Source of the DNA: Haloplanus salinarum
GTDB lineage: Archaea; Halobacteriota; Halobacteria; Halobacteriales; Haloferacaceae
DNA: 64,000 bases
NCBI RefSeq assembly: GCF_024498175.1
Contig: NZ_CP101823.1
Coordinates: forward strand, 248,001 to 312,000
Direction: 5' to 3'
Position numbers and translations under genes: made by a program. The notes beneath the pieces were generated by a model that saw only the letters and a list, made by a program, of their open reading frames with translations, was not told where the DNA came from and ran no database searches. This document shows, one piece after another, positions 29,836 to 40,114 of the stretch; within the stretch, counting starts at the first letter, position 1; every line of letters starts with the position of its first letter.

Positions 29836-30462
29836 CTACTCCTGCTCGTCGAGGATGTACTGGAAGTACGGCGTCATCGCGTCGCGGGCCTCGTCCCACC
29901 GGCGCATGTCGTGGAGTTCGACCCCGAGGGCGTAGCGCGTCGGTTCGGGGCCGAACCCGGCCTGTCCGTGGCGGGGCTTCTCGGGATAGGCTGGGTTCCC
30001 GAGGGCCGCACGGAGTTCGAGCATCTGGGCCTGCATCATCGGCGACCAGTAGTCCTCGCCGGTCTTGTGGTTTATCCAGGCAGTCGTCGTCAGTTCGGCG
30101 TACCGCGGATCGATGTCGGCGACCTCCGCCCGGCGTTCGAAGGCGTCCTCCATCGGGGACCAGTCGGCCGCTTCGAGGCGTTCGGGATCCAGGCTACCGT
30201 TGACGCGGCAGGATTCCTCGATTTCGTCTTTGACCCAGAGGGCGTCCACGTAGCCGAGGGCCGCCCGAACCGCCTCGGTCTCGTCCAAATCCGGAAACTG
30301 GAGGGCGTCGACGGCGCCGAACGCTTTGATCGACGCTTCACGCCGGCGCTGGTCGTGATGAATGAATCCGTTACAGAGCTGTTCGGCCATGTAGGACGCC
30401 GACCGTTCGACGTCTTCGGGAAGTGACGGCAGTTGTGCTTGGGTGGGGGGAGTTTCTTTCAT
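29836..30462 (-). CDS. Uncharacterised acidic protein
   Basis: 208 residues, soluble, mostly helical, no cysteine cluster or membrane segment. Recognisable blocks are AEQLCNGFIHHDQRRREASIK, trimmed here to its core CNGFIHHDQR, and INHKTGEDYWSPMM. No family is recognised. It converges on the 29001 gene with 10 bases between ends. An AT-rich box (30490-30499) about 32 bases before the ATG may be its promoter. Confidence 0.7.
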   Translation of the reverse strand: MKETPPTQAQLPSLPEDVERSASYMAEQLCNGFIHHDQRRREASIKAFGAVDALQFPDLDETEAVRAALGYVDALWVKDEIEESCRVNGSLDPERLEAADWSPMEDAFERRAEVADIDPRYAELTTTAWINHKTGEDYWSPMMQAQMLELRAALGNPAYPEKPRHGQAGFGPEPTRYALGVELHDMRRWDEARDAMTPYFQYILDEQE

Positions 30463-30610
30463 TTACGTCTCCGACTCTGATGGACTCGGCGATAAGTTTA
30501 CCCACGAAATTCTCACCTGTGATATCGCGGGTAACCATCTCCGGTTGATTCGCTCGCTTTTCGGCTCTATGAGCCCCATTGACATACGATCTATTCAGCT
30601 TTTCGCTATC

Positions 30611-30640
30611 ACGTTCGATATTTAAACCCGGAAAAACGTT
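30611..30640 (-). terminator. Possible T-rich terminator after the DUF7344 gene
   Basis: On the minus strand, ACGTTTTTCC and then GTTTAAATATC follow the stop of the DUF7344 gene at 30648 within 40 bases. T-runs of this kind end transcription in archaea. No strong hairpin is present. Confidence 0.35.
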
Positions 30641-30647
30641 ATAAATC

Positions 30648-31184
30648 TCACAGGAGTTGTTGGAGATAGAGCCAGCGGCGGGACCAGAACTGGTAGAGCG
30701 TCGAGGCGGCGATGGCGAGGAGGAAAAACGACGCCCAGAGGAGCGGATCGACGGCGGACACGAGGGGCGTGTCGGTCGACGCGAGTACGATCGTGAGCAA
30801 GGAGAGCGTGCCGACGGCACGATAGTACGTCGCCCAGGTGACGCCGTAGCGTGTGACTACTTCCATATACAGGTCCACCTGTCGGGCCGGTTTCCGAAGG
30901 ATGATCGTCTTCCGGTCGCTGTCGTAGTCGACGATGCCCGCGTCGTCCAGTTTCGGCAGATGGGTCTGGTGGAGCGAGACGTAGACGCTGTCGCGGATGT
31001 TACTCGGTGGTGGTGATTCGTCGGTCTCGATCTCGGCGATGTGGACTGCCAGATCCCGGAGCGACACCTCGCGTCCCCGATCCTGGAGACACTTGATGAC
31101 GTTTCGCCGTCGGTCATTCCGAAGGATGTCGTGGATGTCCGTTTCGGGAAGTACGTCGTCCGTCTTGAGTAGTCCGATGTTCAT
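30648..31184 (-). CDS. DUF7344 winged-helix protein with two C-terminal membrane helices
   Basis: 178 residues. Residues 15-110 form a winged helix (IHDILRNDRRRNVIKCL, LHQTHLPKLDDAGIVDYD) of the haloarchaeal DUF7344 type. Two membrane helices follow at about 120-140 and 147-165. Such membrane-tethered DNA-binding proteins are common in haloarchaea and few are characterised. It is divergent from the SipW/TasA-type cluster and shares a 384-base intergenic region with it, so it is a candidate regulator of that cluster. Confidence 0.78.
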   Translation of the reverse strand: MNIGLLKTDDVLPETDIHDILRNDRRRNVIKCLQDRGREVSLRDLAVHIAEIETDESPPPSNIRDSVYVSLHQTHLPKLDDAGIVDYDSDRKTIILRKPARQVDLYMEVVTRYGVTWATYYRAVGTLSLLTIVLASTDTPLVSAVDPLLWASFFLLAIAASTLYQFWSRRWLYLQQLL

Positions 31185-31353
31185 GGGTGGCGCCCGGGTT
31201 CACATGCACCAACACGACAGGGGGGCATAATTATCAGTATCTTAATCGATCGAAGGCTGAGTCTGTGAACGACGTTAATTCCCGGTTAGGTGTCCTTACC
31301 ACTGGGAAAATTCTGGGGTTTCAGGGCCTCTAGAACGTTAACAACTGATTAAC

Positions 31354-31385
31354 GCCCCCATCAGGGGGGCACGGGCGCTCCCGTG
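31354..31385. promoter_or_regulatory. Two adjacent hairpins upstream of the secreted-protein cluster
   Basis: GCCCCC-ATCA-GGGGGGC (31354-31370) touches CACGGG-CGCT-CCCGTG (31370-31385). Both have stems of five to six GC pairs and four-base loops. No T-run follows, so a plain terminator is unlikely. They could be operators or leader-RNA structure. Confidence 0.5.
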
Positions 31386-31520
31386 GCCCCGCGCCGGACG
31401 TTCGGCCTCAGTAACCGTGGCTTTACTCGCGTTAGTCCGACGTTATGTGAGCGAATTGGCGATTAGCTATGATAGTGGGTGGTATGTGATCCATGTGAGT
31501 CACCCACACCGGTTCACGAC

Positions 31521-31544
31521 GACGGTTCGACTCCGTCGGTGGGC
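31521..31544 (+). promoter_or_regulatory. T-arm-like hairpin element, copy 1
   Basis: GACGG-TTCGACT-CCGTC followed by GGTGGGC. The 7-base loop fits the tRNA T-loop consensus TTCRANY. The stem differs from copy 2 by a compensatory A-T for G-C pair. The hairpin CCCC-TCAC-GGGG and a purine-rich stretch follow before the ATG at 31569 (loop to ATG about 37 bases). Confidence 0.75.
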
Positions 31545-31568
31545 ATCCCCTCACGGGGGGAACAAAAA

Positions 31569-32627
31569 ATGACGGACGAACGATTCGACATCTCACGGCG
31601 GAAGGCCCTCGCGGCCTTGGGGACGATCGGCGTCGCCTCGGCCGGTGCGGGGCTCGGGACCAGCGCGTACTTCTCCGATCAGGAGACGTTCGAGAACAAC
31701 CAGCTCGTGGCCGGCACGCTCGACGTGGGTGTTGGTTACTCGGCGCATTACTCTGACTGGATGGCAAACGAGGAGGGGACCCCGGAAGACGAAAACGTCG
31801 ACAGTCTCCGGATGTGGGATGGGCCGATAAATACGACCGGTGGTTCGGGCGATCTTACGGGCGACGAGGTCGGGCTTCCCGCGGACGACGCGTGGCTAAT
31901 CGCCGTCGGAGACGAAGATGATGCCGAAGAGTTCCTCGACAATACCGAGTACCAGTCGTTCAACGACGACGGACTGGACGACTGTCCGCTTGACGATGGT
32001 GAGCAGGCTGACGACGCAGAGGCTCCGGTGATCAATCTCGAGGACGTGAAGCCGGGCGACTTCGGTGAGGTTACGTTCGACTTCAGAATCTGTGACAACC
32101 CCGGCTTCGTGTGGCTAAACGGCCAACTCGAATCCGCCGCGGAGAACGGTCTCACCGAACCCGAAGCCGACGATCCGCAGGAGGATGGCGACGCAGATTC
32201 GACCGACCCGGAAGACGTCGAACTCCTCGACGTCGTCCAAACGGCTGTCTGGGTCGACGATGGGGACAACTATCAGGACGGTGAGGAAGAGCCGCTGGCC
32301 GTTCAATCCTTGCGCGACCTCTTGATGGATCTCGACGACGATGGCAACCGGGCTGGAGTTCCCCTCGCTGGAAACACCTCCCCGGAGGAAGGCGGTGCTG
32401 CGGCCGACGCCCGAAACTGCTTCGCGGGCGACGAGAAGCACTCGTTCGTCTTCGCGTGGTGGGTTCCGATCGACCACGGCAACCAGATCCAGAGCGATCA
32501 AGCTTCGTTCCGACTCGGCCTCTACACCGAACAGTGCCGCCACAACGACGGCAGCGGCATGAACAACGAAGGGCTCGAGGACGAGGTCGACGACGACCAG
32601 GAGACGTCGACCCCGGCTCCCTCGTAG
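31569..32627 (+). CDS. SipW-type signal-peptide protein, TasA/camelysin-like secreted subunit
   Basis: 352 residues. ISRRKALAALGTIGVASAGA gives a signal with a twin-arginine pair at 10-11. AYFSDQETFENN and LVAGTLDV (33-52) are the hallmark of SipW-processed TasA/camelysin proteins. The mature part is highly acidic, contains NLEDVKPGDFGEVTF and ends with cysteines around WWVPIDHGN and YTEQCRHNDGSG. Relatives form extracellular fibres or matrix subunits by donor-strand exchange. The next gene is a close homologue with an extra domain. A SipW-type peptidase is encoded downstream. The ATG at 31569 has a G-rich ribosome-binding-like stretch eight bases upstream. Confidence 0.85.
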   Translation: MTDERFDISRRKALAALGTIGVASAGAGLGTSAYFSDQETFENNQLVAGTLDVGVGYSAHYSDWMANEEGTPEDENVDSLRMWDGPINTTGGSGDLTGDEVGLPADDAWLIAVGDEDDAEEFLDNTEYQSFNDDGLDDCPLDDGEQADDAEAPVINLEDVKPGDFGEVTFDFRICDNPGFVWLNGQLESAAENGLTEPEADDPQEDGDADSTDPEDVELLDVVQTAVWVDDGDNYQDGEEEPLAVQSLRDLLMDLDDDGNRAGVPLAGNTSPEEGGAAADARNCFAGDEKHSFVFAWWVPIDHGNQIQSDQASFRLGLYTEQCRHNDGSGMNNEGLEDEVDDDQETSTPAPS

Positions 32628-32675
32628 TCGCACGCGATCCAGACCCACTCGGAGACGGCGTTTCCCCGCGCCGAC

Positions 32676-32699
32676 GGCGGTTCGACTCCGCCGGTGGGC
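32676..32699 (+). promoter_or_regulatory. T-arm-like hairpin element, copy 2
   Basis: GGCGG-TTCGACT-CCGCC then GGTGGGC. CCCAC at 32644-32648 can pair with GTGGG, closing a structure that also contains the hairpin CGGCG...CGCCG (32655-32673). The hairpin CCCC-GGAT-GGGG follows before the ATG at 32723 (loop to ATG 36 bases). Confidence 0.75.
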
Positions 32700-32722
32700 A
32701 TCCCCGGATGGGGAGTGACACC

Positions 32723-34768
32723 ATGACGGACGGCGAATTCGACATCTCACGGCGGAAGGCGCTGGCCGCGCTCGGCACGATCGGCGTCGCCTCGGCAGGG
32801 GCCGGACTCGGCACGAGTGCGTACTTCAGCGACCAGGAAACGTTCGAGAACAACCGGCTCGTGGCCGGCGAGCTGGACCTGAAGATGGACTGGGAGGAGC
32901 ACTACTCCGACTGGTCCGCGGACGAGAACGACAATCCGGACGACGGGTCCCTCGACATCCGGATGGAGGAACCGGAGAACTCGGGCGACTACACGCGATA
33001 TCCCGCCGGTGTGGAGGACGAGACCGAAGGGCTCCATTCCCTCTGGGTTGCGAACGGCGACGTGCCGCAGTTCCAGGACAACACCGCCATCGAGGCGTTC
33101 CCCGACGACGACGACGACGGCATCGCCAGTTACGGTGACTTGGTGGACAACAACGCCAGCGACGAGGGCTTCCCCGGCAACGACGAGAACGATCTCTCGC
33201 CGACAGCCTGCGATATCCTGGCGGACGTCGGCGACGACGACGGTGGACTCAGCTCCGATTCGCGGACGAACGCCACCATCGACGGACAGACGACCAGCCC
33301 CGGCGATCCGCTGATCAACTTACAGGACGTGAAGCCGGGTGACTTCGGCGAGGTCACGTTCAGTACGCACCTCTGTGACAACGACGGCTACCTCTGGATG
33401 AACGCTCCGGGTGGTCTCACGGCGGACGAGACCGGAACGACTGAGCCCGAAGCCGACGATCCGGAGGAAGGAGAGGGCGTCGAACTCGTGGACACAGTGC
33501 AGACGGCACTCTGGTACGACAATAACTGTGATAACGTCCCACAGGAGGACCCGGAGCCGGTCGATGTAATCGCAATCGCGGACACTTCGGCGTCGATCAG
33601 TGACGAAGATCCGGACAACCAGCTCGAACTACTGACACAGGGGGCGAACGCGTTCGTCGAAGAGCTGCCGAACGGTACGTTACCGAGCGGCTCACGAGCA
33701 GGCGAGGAAATCGTCCGGATCGGCCTGATGTCGTTCGCTGGCGGTGAGGACATCGATACCCCCGTGTCTCTTGAGGCGACCGTCGGACCTGTCGATCAGT
33801 TCCTCGACGGCGACGGAAACGGGATCGCAGGTGACTTTCTCCCCGACGAGACGGCGGGTAACACGCCAATGGCCGGCGCCCTCGATATCGCTCGGGGGAT
33901 CCTCAATGATCCCTCGCTCGATGGCGTCCGCGAATCCGACGTCGACAAGAAGATTCTCCTCGTCACTGACGGTGCCCCGAACTACAGCTACGGGATCATC
34001 GAAACCGGTCTACCAAACGCGGGCGAGGAAGGCGTCCAGTACGGCGTTGATTACAACGGTACGTCGATATACTCCGAGAAGTTCGTCGAAGGAATCCATC
34101 CGGAGAACGACGATGGCGACGGCGGAACGCCCGGTCTTGGCAACGACCCGTTCGAGGGTTCGGACGACTTCCCCGATGGTGGCGAGGAGTCCACGTCGTC
34201 TGACCAAGAACGCTACGAGACGTGGCAGATCGCCAGCGAGGGATCGGACTACGGCTTCACCGCAATCAACGGCGACACCACAAACGACGACGACGGGATG
34301 GAGATACTCGTGGCCGGCATCGCGAACGAAGATGTGGGCCTCGGCGATGCACTCGACTCCTATCTCCAGATGCGTATCGCATCGACGCCGAGCCAGTTCT
34401 ACGACACCAATTTCAGCGCCGATATTAGGGATACTGCCCGTCAGATCGCTCGCGACGTCGCTGCGGGCGGCGCCGGCGGCGAGGAGTACATCTTCCGGGG
34501 AGAGACGCTCGCGGACGCCATCGATCGCCTCTCCGACGGGAACGGCATCCCGCTCGACGGCGACCGGACCACCGAAGGCCGGCAGTGTTTCGACGCCTCC
34601 GCGACCCACTGCTTCGGCTTCTCGTGGTGGGTGCCGATCGATCACGGCAACGAGATACAGAGCGACGCCGCCTCCTTCGACATCGGCTTCTACACCGAGC
34701 AGTGCCGCCACAACGACGGCAGCGGCATGAACAACGAGGAGGTCACGCCCGCGGAAACCGACGCCTGA
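32723..34768 (+). CDS. TasA/camelysin-like secreted protein with an inserted von Willebrand A domain
   Basis: 681 residues. Residues 5-45 are nearly identical to the preceding gene (same SRR signal, AYFSDQETFENN), and the C-terminus (WWVPIDHGNEIQSD, YTEQCRHNDGSG) matches too. Between them about 325 residues (roughly 280-605) form a VWA domain with a complete metal-ion-dependent adhesion site: Asp287, Ser289, Ser291 (ADTSAS), Thr381 (GNTPMAG) and Asp416 (LLVTDGAPN). The scaffold probably joins a surface fibre or matrix while the VWA domain binds a ligand or adhesive target. Origin by tandem duplication plus domain insertion is inferred from the shared ends. Confidence 0.86.
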   Translation: MTDGEFDISRRKALAALGTIGVASAGAGLGTSAYFSDQETFENNRLVAGELDLKMDWEEHYSDWSADENDNPDDGSLDIRMEEPENSGDYTRYPAGVEDETEGLHSLWVANGDVPQFQDNTAIEAFPDDDDDGIASYGDLVDNNASDEGFPGNDENDLSPTACDILADVGDDDGGLSSDSRTNATIDGQTTSPGDPLINLQDVKPGDFGEVTFSTHLCDNDGYLWMNAPGGLTADETGTTEPEADDPEEGEGVELVDTVQTALWYDNNCDNVPQEDPEPVDVIAIADTSASISDEDPDNQLELLTQGANAFVEELPNGTLPSGSRAGEEIVRIGLMSFAGGEDIDTPVSLEATVGPVDQFLDGDGNGIAGDFLPDETAGNTPMAGALDIARGILNDPSLDGVRESDVDKKILLVTDGAPNYSYGIIETGLPNAGEEGVQYGVDYNGTSIYSEKFVEGIHPENDDGDGGTPGLGNDPFEGSDDFPDGGEESTSSDQERYETWQIASEGSDYGFTAINGDTTNDDDGMEILVAGIANEDVGLGDALDSYLQMRIASTPSQFYDTNFSADIRDTARQIARDVAAGGAGGEEYIFRGETLADAIDRLSDGNGIPLDGDRTTEGRQCFDASATHCFGFSWWVPIDHGNEIQSDAASFDIGFYTEQCRHNDGSGMNNEEVTPAETDA

Positions 34769-34828
34769 ACCACCGCCCGCTCCCCATCCCACCCCGCGCC
34801 GGTCGCGGGAGTCACGCGGTGACTCCCC

Positions 34829-34852
34829 GGCGGTTCGACTCCGCCGGCGGGC
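34829..34852 (+). promoter_or_regulatory. T-arm-like hairpin element, copy 3
   Basis: GGCGG-TTCGACT-CCGCC then GGCGGGC. GCCCGCT at 34775-34781 can pair with all seven bases of GGCGGGC (last pair G-U), giving a 78-base closed structure. Inside it are the hairpins CCCGCG/CGCGGG (34793-34809) and a nine-pair stem GGGAGTCAC-GCG-GTGACTCCC (34807-34827). The ATG of the next gene is four bases after the element. Confidence 0.75.
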
Positions 34853-34856
34853 CTCG

Positions 34857-35633
34857 ATGCCACTCGATTCAGTCAGTCGGCGGCGACTCCTCGCCGCGGT
34901 CGGGGGCGTTGGCGCCCTCTATCTCGGCGCCGACAGAGCCGGTGCTATCCTCGGCGACCCGGTGGAGCTGAATCAGCGGACGGTCAACGGAACGTACGCC
35001 CGGGAACACGAGTTCACGGACGCGCCGCCGCGGATCGCGCTCTCGTGGCGCGAGGTGGTGAACGGCCAGGTCCGGGAGGACACCACGGACGACGTGGCCG
35101 AGACGGGTGGCGTGGGGTTGATCGTCGACGAGGCGGTGATGCCGGGCGACAGCGGGGCGGTGACGATGCGGGCGGAGCTACTCGAACGGGACACGGAGAC
35201 CCAGGACGCGGAGCTGTACCTGGTCTACCGACTCACCGAGACGGCGGAGAACGGCATCAACGACCCCGAGCGTGAGGCCGGGGACACCTCGCCGAACGAC
35301 GGCGAACTCGATGACTACACCGAGATCAGCGTCTGGATCGACGACGGCCTTCTCGGAGGAGACGGTGAGTTGAGTACGCTGCCGGTCATCGGGGACGACC
35401 CCGTCGCTTCGGGGACGCTCGCGGAAGTCGACACCTCGCAACTGGACGGCGACCCGCAGGCGAACACGGGGGGATACCAGCTCTCCGTCGACGGCGAGAC
35501 GTGTCTCTCGCCAGGCGCCACGGTGTACGTCTCCTTCGAGTGGCACATTCCCGAGACCGTCGGCAACATCATCCAGGGGGATTCGGCGGTCTTCCAACTC
35601 GGCTTCGATCCGAGGCCGTGCCCGGGGGGCTAA
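34857..35633 (+). CDS. Third secreted subunit-like protein of the cluster
   Basis: 258 residues. The signal VSRRRLLAAVGGVGALYLGA has paired arginines. The mature N-terminus ILGDPVELNQRTVNGTY keeps only traces of the FSDxE pattern. A beta-rich acidic domain follows, with VMPGDSGAVTM, EISVWIDDG and FEWHIPETVGN, matching positions of KPGDFGEV, VQTAVWVDD and WWVPIDHGN in the two upstream proteins. It is therefore a diverged member of the same fold, perhaps a cap or anchor. It is preceded by the third T-arm-like hairpin. Confidence 0.78.
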   Translation: MPLDSVSRRRLLAAVGGVGALYLGADRAGAILGDPVELNQRTVNGTYAREHEFTDAPPRIALSWREVVNGQVREDTTDDVAETGGVGLIVDEAVMPGDSGAVTMRAELLERDTETQDAELYLVYRLTETAENGINDPEREAGDTSPNDGELDDYTEISVWIDDGLLGGDGELSTLPVIGDDPVASGTLAEVDTSQLDGDPQANTGGYQLSVDGETCLSPGATVYVSFEWHIPETVGNIIQGDSAVFQLGFDPRPCPGG

Positions 35634-35949
35634 CCATGCTGATCCGTGGAGTTAATGACCAATTAGCGGGGTCCGTGCGGGTGAACGAAACCGGCTGTGC
35701 CGGTCGATTCGGTGCCTCTGACTCCGGAACGAGCCATCGCTGGGTCACTCCTTCGTTACGTTCCGTTCAGGGACGGCTTACCCGCGCCCGTGTCGTGTCA
35801 AACGAGCGGATAACTAAGACCGTTACAGGGGAGGATAGTAGTGATGGACACGACGGGGGAGACCGACGGGGGATCGAGTCACTTCGGGAGGTGCCTTCGA
35901 TGATCGCCACGCATCGACACACTCCGGTTCCGAGCGCGAGGTGGCGGCG
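35634..35949. other. 316-base gap with a promoter-like box and two tiny overlapping ORFs
   Basis: No standard gene. GATAACTA (35809-35816) lies about 30 bases before GTG 35841/ATG 35844, which opens a 19-codon frame ending at 35903. Its stop overlaps (ATGA) an ATG at 35900 of a 17-codon frame ending at 35953, whose stop overlaps (ATGA) the signal-peptidase ATG at 35950. This may be a translated leader or coincidence. Confidence 0.5.
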
Positions 35950-37086
35950 ATGAACGTGCGTTCGCTGAGCGATCGGAACACGCTCCGGCTGGCGATGAAC
36001 GTCCTCGGCGTGCTGATCATCGTCGCCATCGTGGTGCCCTTTATCGTGTACGCGGTGCCGGGCGTGGTCGGCGCCGACCACGGGCTGGTCGTCCTGTCCG
36101 GCAGCATGGAGCCGAAGATGAGTCCCGGTGACGCGGTCATCGTCCGCGAAGTTCCGCCGTCGGAGATCGAAACGGGGGACGTCATCACCTTCCAGCGGGA
36201 GGGCTCCGACACGCCGACGACCCACCGCGTGATCGAGATCCAGCAGACGGAGGAGGGCACCGCCTACGTTACCAAGGGTGACGCCAACGAGGACCCCGAT
36301 AGGGGGACCGTTGCACACAGCCGCGTGGTCGGCGAGGTGATCTTCGTGATCCCGCTTCTCGGTCACGTGGTCCAGTTCGCGAACACCCAGGTCGGGTTCC
36401 TCGCGCTCGTGCTCACCCCGATGGTGTTGTTCGTCCTCTCGGAACTCTGGGAGCTGGCGAAGTCGGTCCGTGAGCCGGACACGCCGGCCGCGACGACGGC
36501 GACCGACGAGCCGTCGGTCACGTCGGCGTCCTCGACGGCCGCTGGCGCCGACGTCGGAACGGGCGCGACCGGTGACACCGACGAGGAGAGCGGCGGGTTC
36601 ACACTCACCCGTTCGAGCCTCCAACTGATCTTGCTCCTGTTGGTGCTGTACGCCCCGTACAGCGCCTACGTTGCGTACACGATCCGGGAGGCGTGGGCGA
36701 TCACCGCTGCGACCGGAACCGTGATCGCGCTCCTGTTCTGTCTGGTGATCTATCTGGCTAGTCGCGGCGCGGGAAGTGACTCGAAGCCGACGGTGGCCCG
36801 ATCGACCGACGGCATCGTCCGCCACGGAGAACTCCCGGCACGGATCGGCGAACGGACGACGGTTCCGCTGGATTCGATCGAGTCGCTTGTCCAGATGGCG
36901 CTCGACCGCGACAACTGGGTCATCTACGACGAGGACGAGGACACGTACTACGTGGCTCGGGACGACGCGCTGTACCTGCACCGCACCTCCCCCGAGACGG
37001 ACGGCGGGGTGACGGTGGAGGCGGCCGGTACCGAGGACGACCGGGTGTCGACCGACGAGTCGACGACTGGAGGTGGCGGTTCGTGA
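35950..37086 (+). CDS. SipW-type (ER/archaeal) signal peptidase I
   Basis: 378 residues. A membrane helix at about 12-37 is followed by the catalytic Ser52 in LSGSMEPKM, His92 in TTHRVIEI in place of the bacterial Lys, and Asp111 in TKGDANEDPD. Three or more additional helices follow (about 128-165 and 210-265), then a long acidic C-terminal domain. Such peptidases process SipW-dependent precursors, here most likely the TasA-like proteins encoded on either side. Its TGA overlaps the GTG of the next gene. Confidence 0.88.
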   Translation: MNVRSLSDRNTLRLAMNVLGVLIIVAIVVPFIVYAVPGVVGADHGLVVLSGSMEPKMSPGDAVIVREVPPSEIETGDVITFQREGSDTPTTHRVIEIQQTEEGTAYVTKGDANEDPDRGTVAHSRVVGEVIFVIPLLGHVVQFANTQVGFLALVLTPMVLFVLSELWELAKSVREPDTPAATTATDEPSVTSASSTAAGADVGTGATGDTDEESGGFTLTRSSLQLILLLLVLYAPYSAYVAYTIREAWAITAATGTVIALLFCLVIYLASRGAGSDSKPTVARSTDGIVRHGELPARIGERTTVPLDSIESLVQMALDRDNWVIYDEDEDTYYVARDDALYLHRTSPETDGGVTVEAAGTEDDRVSTDESTTGGGGS

Positions 37087-38134: not shown

Positions 38135-40114
38135 ATGTCATCGCTCGACCAACCCGGATTCGACTGGACAGCCGTGGTCGCACTCGTCGCCATGTTCGTG
38201 GTCGTCGCCTCCGCGACCGGCGCGGGGACGTACACGGTGTTGTCCGACGACGAGAACGTCTCGGCGAACGTGACGATCCAACCCAACGTCCAACACGGGA
38301 TGGTCGAGGTCACCCCCGTCCAGTGTTCACCGACTATCAGATCCGACGATCCCTCGAAAGTGGACATAACGAACGTCGAGGTCCTCGGCTCCGAGGAGGT
38401 GGCCGAGCGGGAGACCTGTGCGCGCATCACGTTCTGGCTCAGCCCGTCGCTGTTCGAGGGAACGAACCAATCGCCCGACGACGCCGCCCTGATGCACAAA
38501 CACGACGGCGGTTGGTGGAAACTCAACACGACGGTCTCGTCGACCGATCTCGGACTCCTGTCCTTCTCGGCGTTGACCGACAAGTTCAGTCCGTTCGCGG
38601 TGGCCGTCCCGACCGGACCGGCCACCACCGTCCAGAACGGGACGACGATCAACGAGACGACGATCAACGGGACGACGAACACCACGGTCAACTCCACGAC
38701 GGCCGACGAGCCGGTCAACGGGACGACGGCGAACGCGACGCCGACCGACGGGACGGCGAACGAAACGGGATCGAACGACCCCGTGCAGAACTCGTCAACG
38801 ACGGGCTCCGAGAACGGGTCCGCACCGACGGACAACACGTCCGAAACCGGGGCAGCTGGCAGCTCCGGTGCCCCGAGTGGTTCCGACGACAGCGACACCG
38901 ACGCCGGTACGCCGAGCGACGATGGCTCGGCGGACGACAACGACGAGTCGGCGAGTGATGAGTCGGAGACCGACGACGGTGATTCGACGGACGAGGACTC
39001 CGACAGCGAGGACTCCGACAGCGAGGACTCCGAGAGTGAGGACTCAGACAGCGAGGACTCCGACAGCGAGGACGAGTCCGACAGCGACGACGACTCCGAC
39101 AGCGACGACGACTCCGACAGCGACGACGACTCCGATAGTGAGGACGGCTCCGACAGCGAGGACTCCGAGAGTGAAGACGATGACTCGACGGACGAGTCCG
39201 ACAGCGAGGACTCCGACAGCGAGGACTCCGACAGCGAGGACTCCGACAGCGAGGACTCCGACAGCGAGGACGAGTCCGACAGCGAGGACCCCGACAGCGA
39301 GGACTCCGACAGCGACGACGACTCCGACAGCGAGGATTCCGACAGCGAGGACTCCGACAGCGACGACGACTCCGACAGCGAGGATTCCGACAGCGAGGAC
39401 TCCGACAGCGACGACGACTCCGATAGTGAGGACGGTGACTCGACGGACGACTCCGACAGCGAGGACTCCGACAGCGAGGACTCCGAGAGTGAAGACGATG
39501 ACTCGACGGACGAGTCCGACAGCGACGACGACTCCGACAGCGACGACGACTCCGATAGCGAGGACGGTGACTCGACGGACGACTCCGACAGCGACGACGA
39601 GTCCGACAGCAAGGACGGTGACTCGACGGACGACTCCGACAGTGACGACGGATCGTCGAGCGACGAGTCCGACACCGGTGGCGACGGGTCGTCGAGTGAC
39701 GATTCGAGTTCGGATACCGACGACGGCGGCGACTCCAGCGGTGACACTTCCGGCGACTCGACGAGCGGGGATTCGTCCAGCGACGGCGGTGACTCGACGA
39801 GCGGTGGAGACGACACCTCGAGCGGTGATTCGTCGGACGGCGACTCGAGCGGCGATTCGTCGAGCGGTGGCTCGTCCAGTGACGGCGGCGATTCGTCCGG
39901 CGGCAGTGACTCGTCGTCCGGCGGCAGTGACTCGTCGTCCGGCGGCTCGGATGGTGGCTCGTCCAGTGACGGCGGCGATTCGTCCGGCGGCAGTGACTCG
40001 TCGTCCGGCGGCTCGGATGGTGGCTCGTCAAGTGGCGGCGGCGATTCGTCCGGCGGCTCGGATGGTGGCTCGTCCGGATCGGACGGTAGTTCCTCGGAGG
40101 ATGGATCCGGATAA
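38135..40114 (+). CDS. Asp/Ser-repeat cell-surface protein with PGF-pre-PGF-like domain
   Basis: 659 residues from the ATG at 38135. A TTG at 38129 overlapping the previous stop is possible. A membrane helix or signal at about 13-37 leads to a short folded domain ending [11 protein letters not shown]...FSPFAVAV, resembling the PGF-pre-PGF domain of archaeal surface proteins. A Thr/Asn-rich region with NGTT and NETT glycosylation sequons comes next, then about 240 residues of DSDSED repeats and a Ser/Gly/Asp-rich end. It is like Sdr-type stalk proteins and probably binds Ca2+ or spans the surface layer. Confidence 0.82.
38980..39670. repeat. Asp/Ser/Glu coding microsatellite
   Basis: Head-to-tail units such as GACTCCGACAGCGAG, interleaved with GACGACTCCGACAGC versions, encode DSDSED/DSDSDD repeats. 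Near-identical blocks recur (for example 39310-39360 and 39360-39410). Length variation by slippage or recombination is expected. Confidence 0.9.

Follow-up and report, generated by a model that had tools for sequence, protein, structure and literature searches.

In mitochondrial tRNA punctuation, as with the t-elements of plant mitochondria, cutting is directed by tRNAs or tRNA-like folds that separate the coding regions. Some mRNA leaders also use or imitate tRNA features, such as the T-box riboswitches, which bind tRNA, and the thrS operator, which mimics the anticodon arm. In Haloferax volcanii, the 5S rRNA is immediately preceded by a t-element that tRNase Z processes; t-elements are substrates of both RNase P and tRNase Z, and have been used in vivo to release crRNAs (PMC4326828, PMC4946936, PMC3296008, PMC7714728). 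RNase Z reads the tRNA elbow (PMC4810234). We here describe a related element from a 64,000-nt stretch of the Haloplanus salinarum contig NZ_CP101823.1 (positions 248,001 to 312,000; hereafter the window), where three copies stand before secreted-protein genes of one operon (Table 1). As in the mitochondrial systems, these are tRNA-like folds between coding regions, which in the haloarchaeal case would likewise be cut, whereas the haloarchaeal element occurs in chromosomes and plasmids, is largely confined to one gene class and includes no real tRNA. Unlike the T-box and the thrS operator, it consists of a mini acceptor plus a T-arm.

The initial annotation had reported T-arm-like hairpins at 31521-31544, 32676-32699 and 34829-34852, and all three were found there, with the loop TTCGACT and the GGYGGGC tail. 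All three copies contain a complete mini-tRNA, of which the hairpin makes up the 3' half. Inspection of pattern-search candidates gave the full motif A-CCCAC-R-YY-GG-Y, linker, C-GGCGG-TTCGAYT-CCGCC-G-GTGGG-Y, in which the linker between the P1 and P2 strands measures 9 to 100 nt in all. P1 is an acceptor-like 5-bp helix, with CCCAC at the 5' edge pairing with GTGGG at the 3' end, and the D-loop-like RYYGG is placed between its 5' strand and the linker. P2 is a T-stem of 6 bp with the loop TTCGAYT, and the GTGGG strand of P1 comes next. Thus the five stem pairs first described are present, while the stem is one pair longer, since a conserved C before it pairs with a G after it. The acceptor partner first proposed for copy 3, the 7-mer GCCCGCT 78 bases upstream, has no counterpart in the other copies and was replaced by the conserved 5-mer beside RYYGG. 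In the D-loop of tRNA, G18-G19 come after RYY; in the element, GG is found 1-4 nt past P1 in 128 of 131 copies, as compared with 34% of shuffled linkers. The T-loop bases TTC and A are present in 127 of 127 copies, and the whole loop TTCGAYT is nearly invariant. The acceptor-like helix is continuous with the T-arm, as in a t-element, judging from the covariation of P1 and P2 over 127 copies and the extra pair at the base of the T-stem.

Table 1. Features of the element-bearing operon in the window.
Feature	Position	Strand	Basis or detail
Mini-tRNA copy 1	31502..31544	+	R1 match 52.3 bits, model training copy; RNA fold gives P1 and P2
Copy 1 P1	31503-31507/31539-31543		CCCAC/GTGGG
Copy 1 RYYGG-like ACCGG	31508-31512		
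Copy 1 P2	31520-31525/31533-31538		T-loop 31526-31532
P3 hairpin before start codon of copy-1 gene	31546..31561	+	TCCCCT/GGGGGA; fold
Copy-1 gene, SipW-type secreted protein	31569..32627	+	TIGR04088 32.3 bits (cut-off 19); cognate_SipW, PF12389
Mini-tRNA copy 2, between two genes	32643..32699	+	R1 match 52.7 bits; fold
Copy 2 P1	32644-32648/32694-32698		
Copy 2 P2	32675-32680/32688-32693		T-loop 32681-32687
Copy 2 extra linker hairpin	32656-32661/32668-32673		
P3 hairpin before copy-2 gene	32701..32714	+	TCCCC/GGGGA; fold
Copy-2 gene, SipW-type secreted protein with von Willebrand A-like domain	32723..34768	+	TIGR04088 27.7 bits; VWA_2 24.3 bits, just under its cut-off
Mini-tRNA copy 3, between two genes	34792..34852	+	R1 match 47.4 bits; fold
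Copy 3 P1	34793-34797/34847-34851		CCCGC/GCGGG, compensatory change
Copy 3 RYYGG	34798-34802		
Copy 3 linker hairpin	about 34807-34827		
Copy 3 P2	34828-34833/34841-34846		T-loop 34834-34840
Secreted protein with Tat-like signal, same operon	34857..35633	+	ORF with SRRRLL signal; no family match
Signal peptidase I, archaeal/SipW-like, same operon	35950..37086	+	TIGR02228 116 bits

Copies 2 and 3 begin 16 and 24 nt past the upstream stop codons, and as these gaps leave no room for a promoter, both are most likely co-transcribed with the preceding gene. Copy 3 lacks P3. In copy 1, an upstream GTGGGTG...CACCCAC (31475-31507) could pair with the 5' strand of P1 and so compete with P1, as could GGGTCG...CGACCC in the first-gene copy upstream of 3131 (minus strand) in locus L010; no such competing strand was seen in copy 2. 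Downstream of the signal peptidase gene, 38135-40114 encodes a long protein of Ser-Asp/Glu repeats that carries a PGF-pre-PGF domain. A divergent DUF7344 gene (30648-31184, minus strand) beside the operon may be its regulator, and two plasmids (L247, L248) have a hypothetical gene in the same divergent place.

With two mismatches allowed, the 19-nt motif alone occurs three times in the window against 2.65 expected, which is not beyond chance. Since this count alone was not decisive, recurrence was sought in other sequences, and the significance of the element rests on that comparison, namely on 131 copies, covariation in both helices and a conserved position. A covariance model (R1) built from 27 copies retrieved the 131 copies from 73 loci, most of them outside the training set. 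The element thus recurs at homologous genes of other haloarchaea, a recurrence on which the initial annotation had made its proposal depend, and the original observation is confirmed and extends beyond its first description. Among the 127 distinct rows, 99.8% of the pair cells hold standard pairs, and double changes at five pairs amount to 38 cells as against 4.6 in shuffles, counts that lean towards the structure because the alignment was fitted to it. Slid versions of the structure drop to 35-61% paired, and a smaller MAFFT alignment, made free of structure, agrees on the covariation. The folding energy of single sequences is unremarkable (z about -0.5 to -3), and the support therefore comes from covariation.

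Each copy was considered together with the next gene of its strand. The start codon of a Tat/SipW-type secreted-protein gene comes about 20-25 nt after the element, with 17-27 nt in most copies, and a minority of the copies have no clear gene nearby. Intercistronic copies number 49 and begin 3-95 nt past the upstream stop codon. The downstream proteins (n = 89) include 47 cognate_SipW, 20 TafA, 19 TafE and 15 TafC matches, in overlapping sets of which many fall below curated cut-offs; the twin arginine is nearly invariant among them, and two are signal peptidases. Proteins of the haloarchaeal Tat-fimbriae (TafA/C/E/F families), whose tafi genes were described by Galeva et al. 2025 according to PMC12687288, are thus encoded behind the element, although Tat-fimbriae are a protein system and the element described here is an RNA. 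In the RefSeq annotation of two plasmids, the element occupies the gaps between SipW-type genes, with a signal peptidase I in the same layout.

This placement bears on another suggestion of the initial annotation, that the copies are attachment-site remnants, and also on the idea of decayed tRNA remnants. Although integrases use T-arm sequences and the only bacterial match lies in a Pediococcus prophage, the conserved same-strand distance to start codons, the covariation and the presence of several copies per operon all speak against such an origin; neither ARAGORN nor Rfam detected a tRNA at the window copies, and the annotated neighbourhoods on the two plasmids list no integrase. We thus regard this explanation as highly improbable. 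A tRNA gene, with the D and anticodon arms of a cloverleaf, was also rejected, as ARAGORN gave no tRNA in the window and the linker can be as short as 9 nt. An Rfam scan of 30000-37000 with E up to 10 assigned no family, whether tRNA, riboswitch or other, to the copies. The pairs 1-72 and 7-66 are weak or absent.

The R1 model also matched two sites in the Haloplanus salinarum genome at 37.6 bits, all other non-leader matches there scoring below 23 bits. Both sites, one for each of the two 5S genes of this genome, lie between 23S and 5S rRNA and end 2 nt before the 5S match in Rfam. In other haloarchaea, the pre-5S sequence runs from ACCGAY over a few bases to GG, a T-arm containing TTCGANT and R-GTCGG-C, followed by 5S; its P1 is mostly CCGAY/RTCGG and varies with compensation. 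The base before and the base after the T-stem form T-A or C-G in 23 of 27 pre-5S copies, which points to a T-stem of 6 bp. The leader element likewise has a 5-bp acceptor-like P1, GG after P1, a 6-bp T-stem, the T-loop TTCGANT and no spacer before the 3' strand of P1, and it too would stand directly before the RNA released, in its case an mRNA. It differs in preceding secreted-protein coding regions, often with a P3 hairpin after it, and in occurring in up to several copies per genome outside rRNA operons. Furthermore, the middle pair of P1 is C-G in the leader and G-C before 5S, and the leader P1 hardly departs from CCCAC/GTGGG. A t-element was also observed between 5S rRNA genes arranged in tandem (G024:C1:1498383-1498695 and G007:C7:10-324).

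By analogy with the pre-5S t-element, the element is probably (at a probability of about 0.6) an mRNA-leader or intercistronic t-element that punctuates haloarchaeal secreted-fibre operons and, through cleavage, would create mRNA 5' ends. The T-loop, the D-loop-like RYYGG and the stacked P1/P2 helix would imitate the tRNA elbow plus acceptor, for which reason we propose that tRNase Z, and possibly RNase P, would bind. A transcript running through the element would then be cut right at its 3' (and 5') border, in the manner of pre-5S rRNA. If the cut falls after position 73, the mRNA would begin at or beside the P3 hairpin and the ribosome-binding region, and every gene would be freed with a new 5' end, amounting to tRNA punctuation of mRNA, with a possible benefit for translation or stability. 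CCA at positions 74-76 would block tRNase Z, and it never occurs there in the leader copies. The initial annotation had proposed a leader RNA that mimics the tRNA elbow and could attract a tRNA-processing enzyme or generate the 5' end of an mRNA. This idea agrees with the observations and gains strength from the D-loop-like GG, the acceptor-like P1 and the pre-5S match. We give even odds to tRNA punctuation on protein-coding haloarchaeal operons in its full form, in which tRNase Z and/or RNase P cut the mini-tRNAs before each secreted-fibre gene to yield separate mRNAs with matched 5' hairpins, coupling fibre expression to tRNA processing. Our comparison with the literature, in which Holzle et al. 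2012 (Biochimie 94:940) is not included, found no report of such an mRNA-leader element. If the processing reading is true, a signal known for 5S rRNA would extend to a class of mRNAs, archaea would gain a tRNA-punctuation system for coding operons, and a first handle would be available on the gene-by-gene expression of SipW-type and Tat-fimbrial operons. The elements would then also offer specific, immediately testable RNase substrates, with a predicted cut after nucleotide 73 of each.

Several observations count against processing. Simple processing would not require a fixed sequence, so the near-fixed leader P1 is one of them; an extra sequence-specific binder or a recent spread of copies are possible explanations for it. 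In addition, the element also stands before first genes, the copy-1 gene among them, whose 5' end a promoter could set, and three of the seven TIGR04088 genes of this genome are without it.

The P3 hairpin lies near the start codon in 67% of copies, as compared with 12% of shuffles, and its stem shows compensatory variation (CCCC/GGGG, CGCCC/GGGCG, CATCCC/GGGATG). Of 113 leaders, 82 show a Shine-Dalgarno-like match of at least 4 bases, with 8-9 nt from the start as the commonest distance, a count that carries no background estimate. A switch between P1 and P3 found no support as a general rule, because P1 remains CCCAC where P3 is absent or altered. P3 nevertheless bears on the reading of the element as an uncleaved cis-regulatory RNA, in which a protein or ligand would bind the mimic of the tRNA elbow and the translation of each fibre gene would be controlled, P3 (or P1 itself) hiding the ribosome-binding region. 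The enrichment and compensatory variation of P3 at that region agree with such control, as do the nearly invariant leader P1 and those copies in which the start codon follows after just 4-5 nt, so that P1 itself sits at the ribosome site; however, the element is built like a known processing signal, a third of the copies lack P3 so that a common switch is not evident, and no conserved mutually exclusive pairing was found. Since processing leaves the near-fixed leader P1 unexplained, we keep the uncleaved regulatory element as a serious rival, albeit an unlikely one. It is also conceivable, with a considerably smaller likelihood, that another tRNA-modifying or tRNA-binding factor (e.g. an enzyme that pseudouridylates or methylates the T-loop, or the L1 stalk of the ribosome) uses the element to control the fate of the mRNA. 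Many enzymes and the ribosome read the tRNA elbow (PMC4810234), and the near invariance of the T-loop would suit such a factor; but no finding speaks specifically for it, and the pre-5S parallel favours processing.

The Haloplanus salinarum genome holds more copies at C1:1656731, 1658451, 1745576 and 2764367, each of them in front of a SipW- or Taf-type gene. The copy at 2764367, which lies outside the 127-row alignment, has P1 CTCAC/GTGAG and P2 GGTGG/CCACC, both compensated. The three SipW-type genes of this genome without the t-element (485762, 3269452, 1557364; L211, L212, L213) still show a short hairpin directly before the start codon, near the inferred transcription start. A promoter-like repeat, TTAGCTA(A)TGG or TTAACTAATGG, was seen upstream of several SipW-type genes with or without the t-element, at 31462-31475 in the window and also upstream of G000:C1:2764367, 485762 and 1557364.

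Finally, a pattern search of 195 Halobacteriales genomes gave many further matches, partly tRNAs or chance, whereas the reversed pattern, run as a control, returned next to nothing. With the threshold set strictly, at E up to 2e-5 per genome, a count by eye gives about 110 element-bearing genomes out of 392 in Halobacteriales; a first count of 176 had taken in genomes with a pre-5S match only, and the 66 (by eye) with a best E above 2e-5 were removed. Every match in a sample of 247 genomes across the phylum fell within Halobacteriales. The exact long pattern, run against 84,980 species genomes, returned 67 stretches, and the titles mark all but one of them as haloarchaeal. This sole bacterial full-pattern match, in a Pediococcus acidilactici prophage (L147:5155-5195), is flanked by a gene on either side, has an integrase about 1.6 kb off and may be the decayed remnant of a phage tRNA; when this copy was searched against phages and plasmids, no match was obtained. 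Nine out of 16 match-free genomes lack a SipW-type gene above the threshold, and one of the remainder has a variant missed by the filters (L255). In genome G012, which has no leader elements in the survey, a conserved promoter-like motif, CTTTGCAAAGG, belongs to every single SipW-type gene (L254, L258, L264, L266, L267, L268), as if a promoter stood in place of the t-element.
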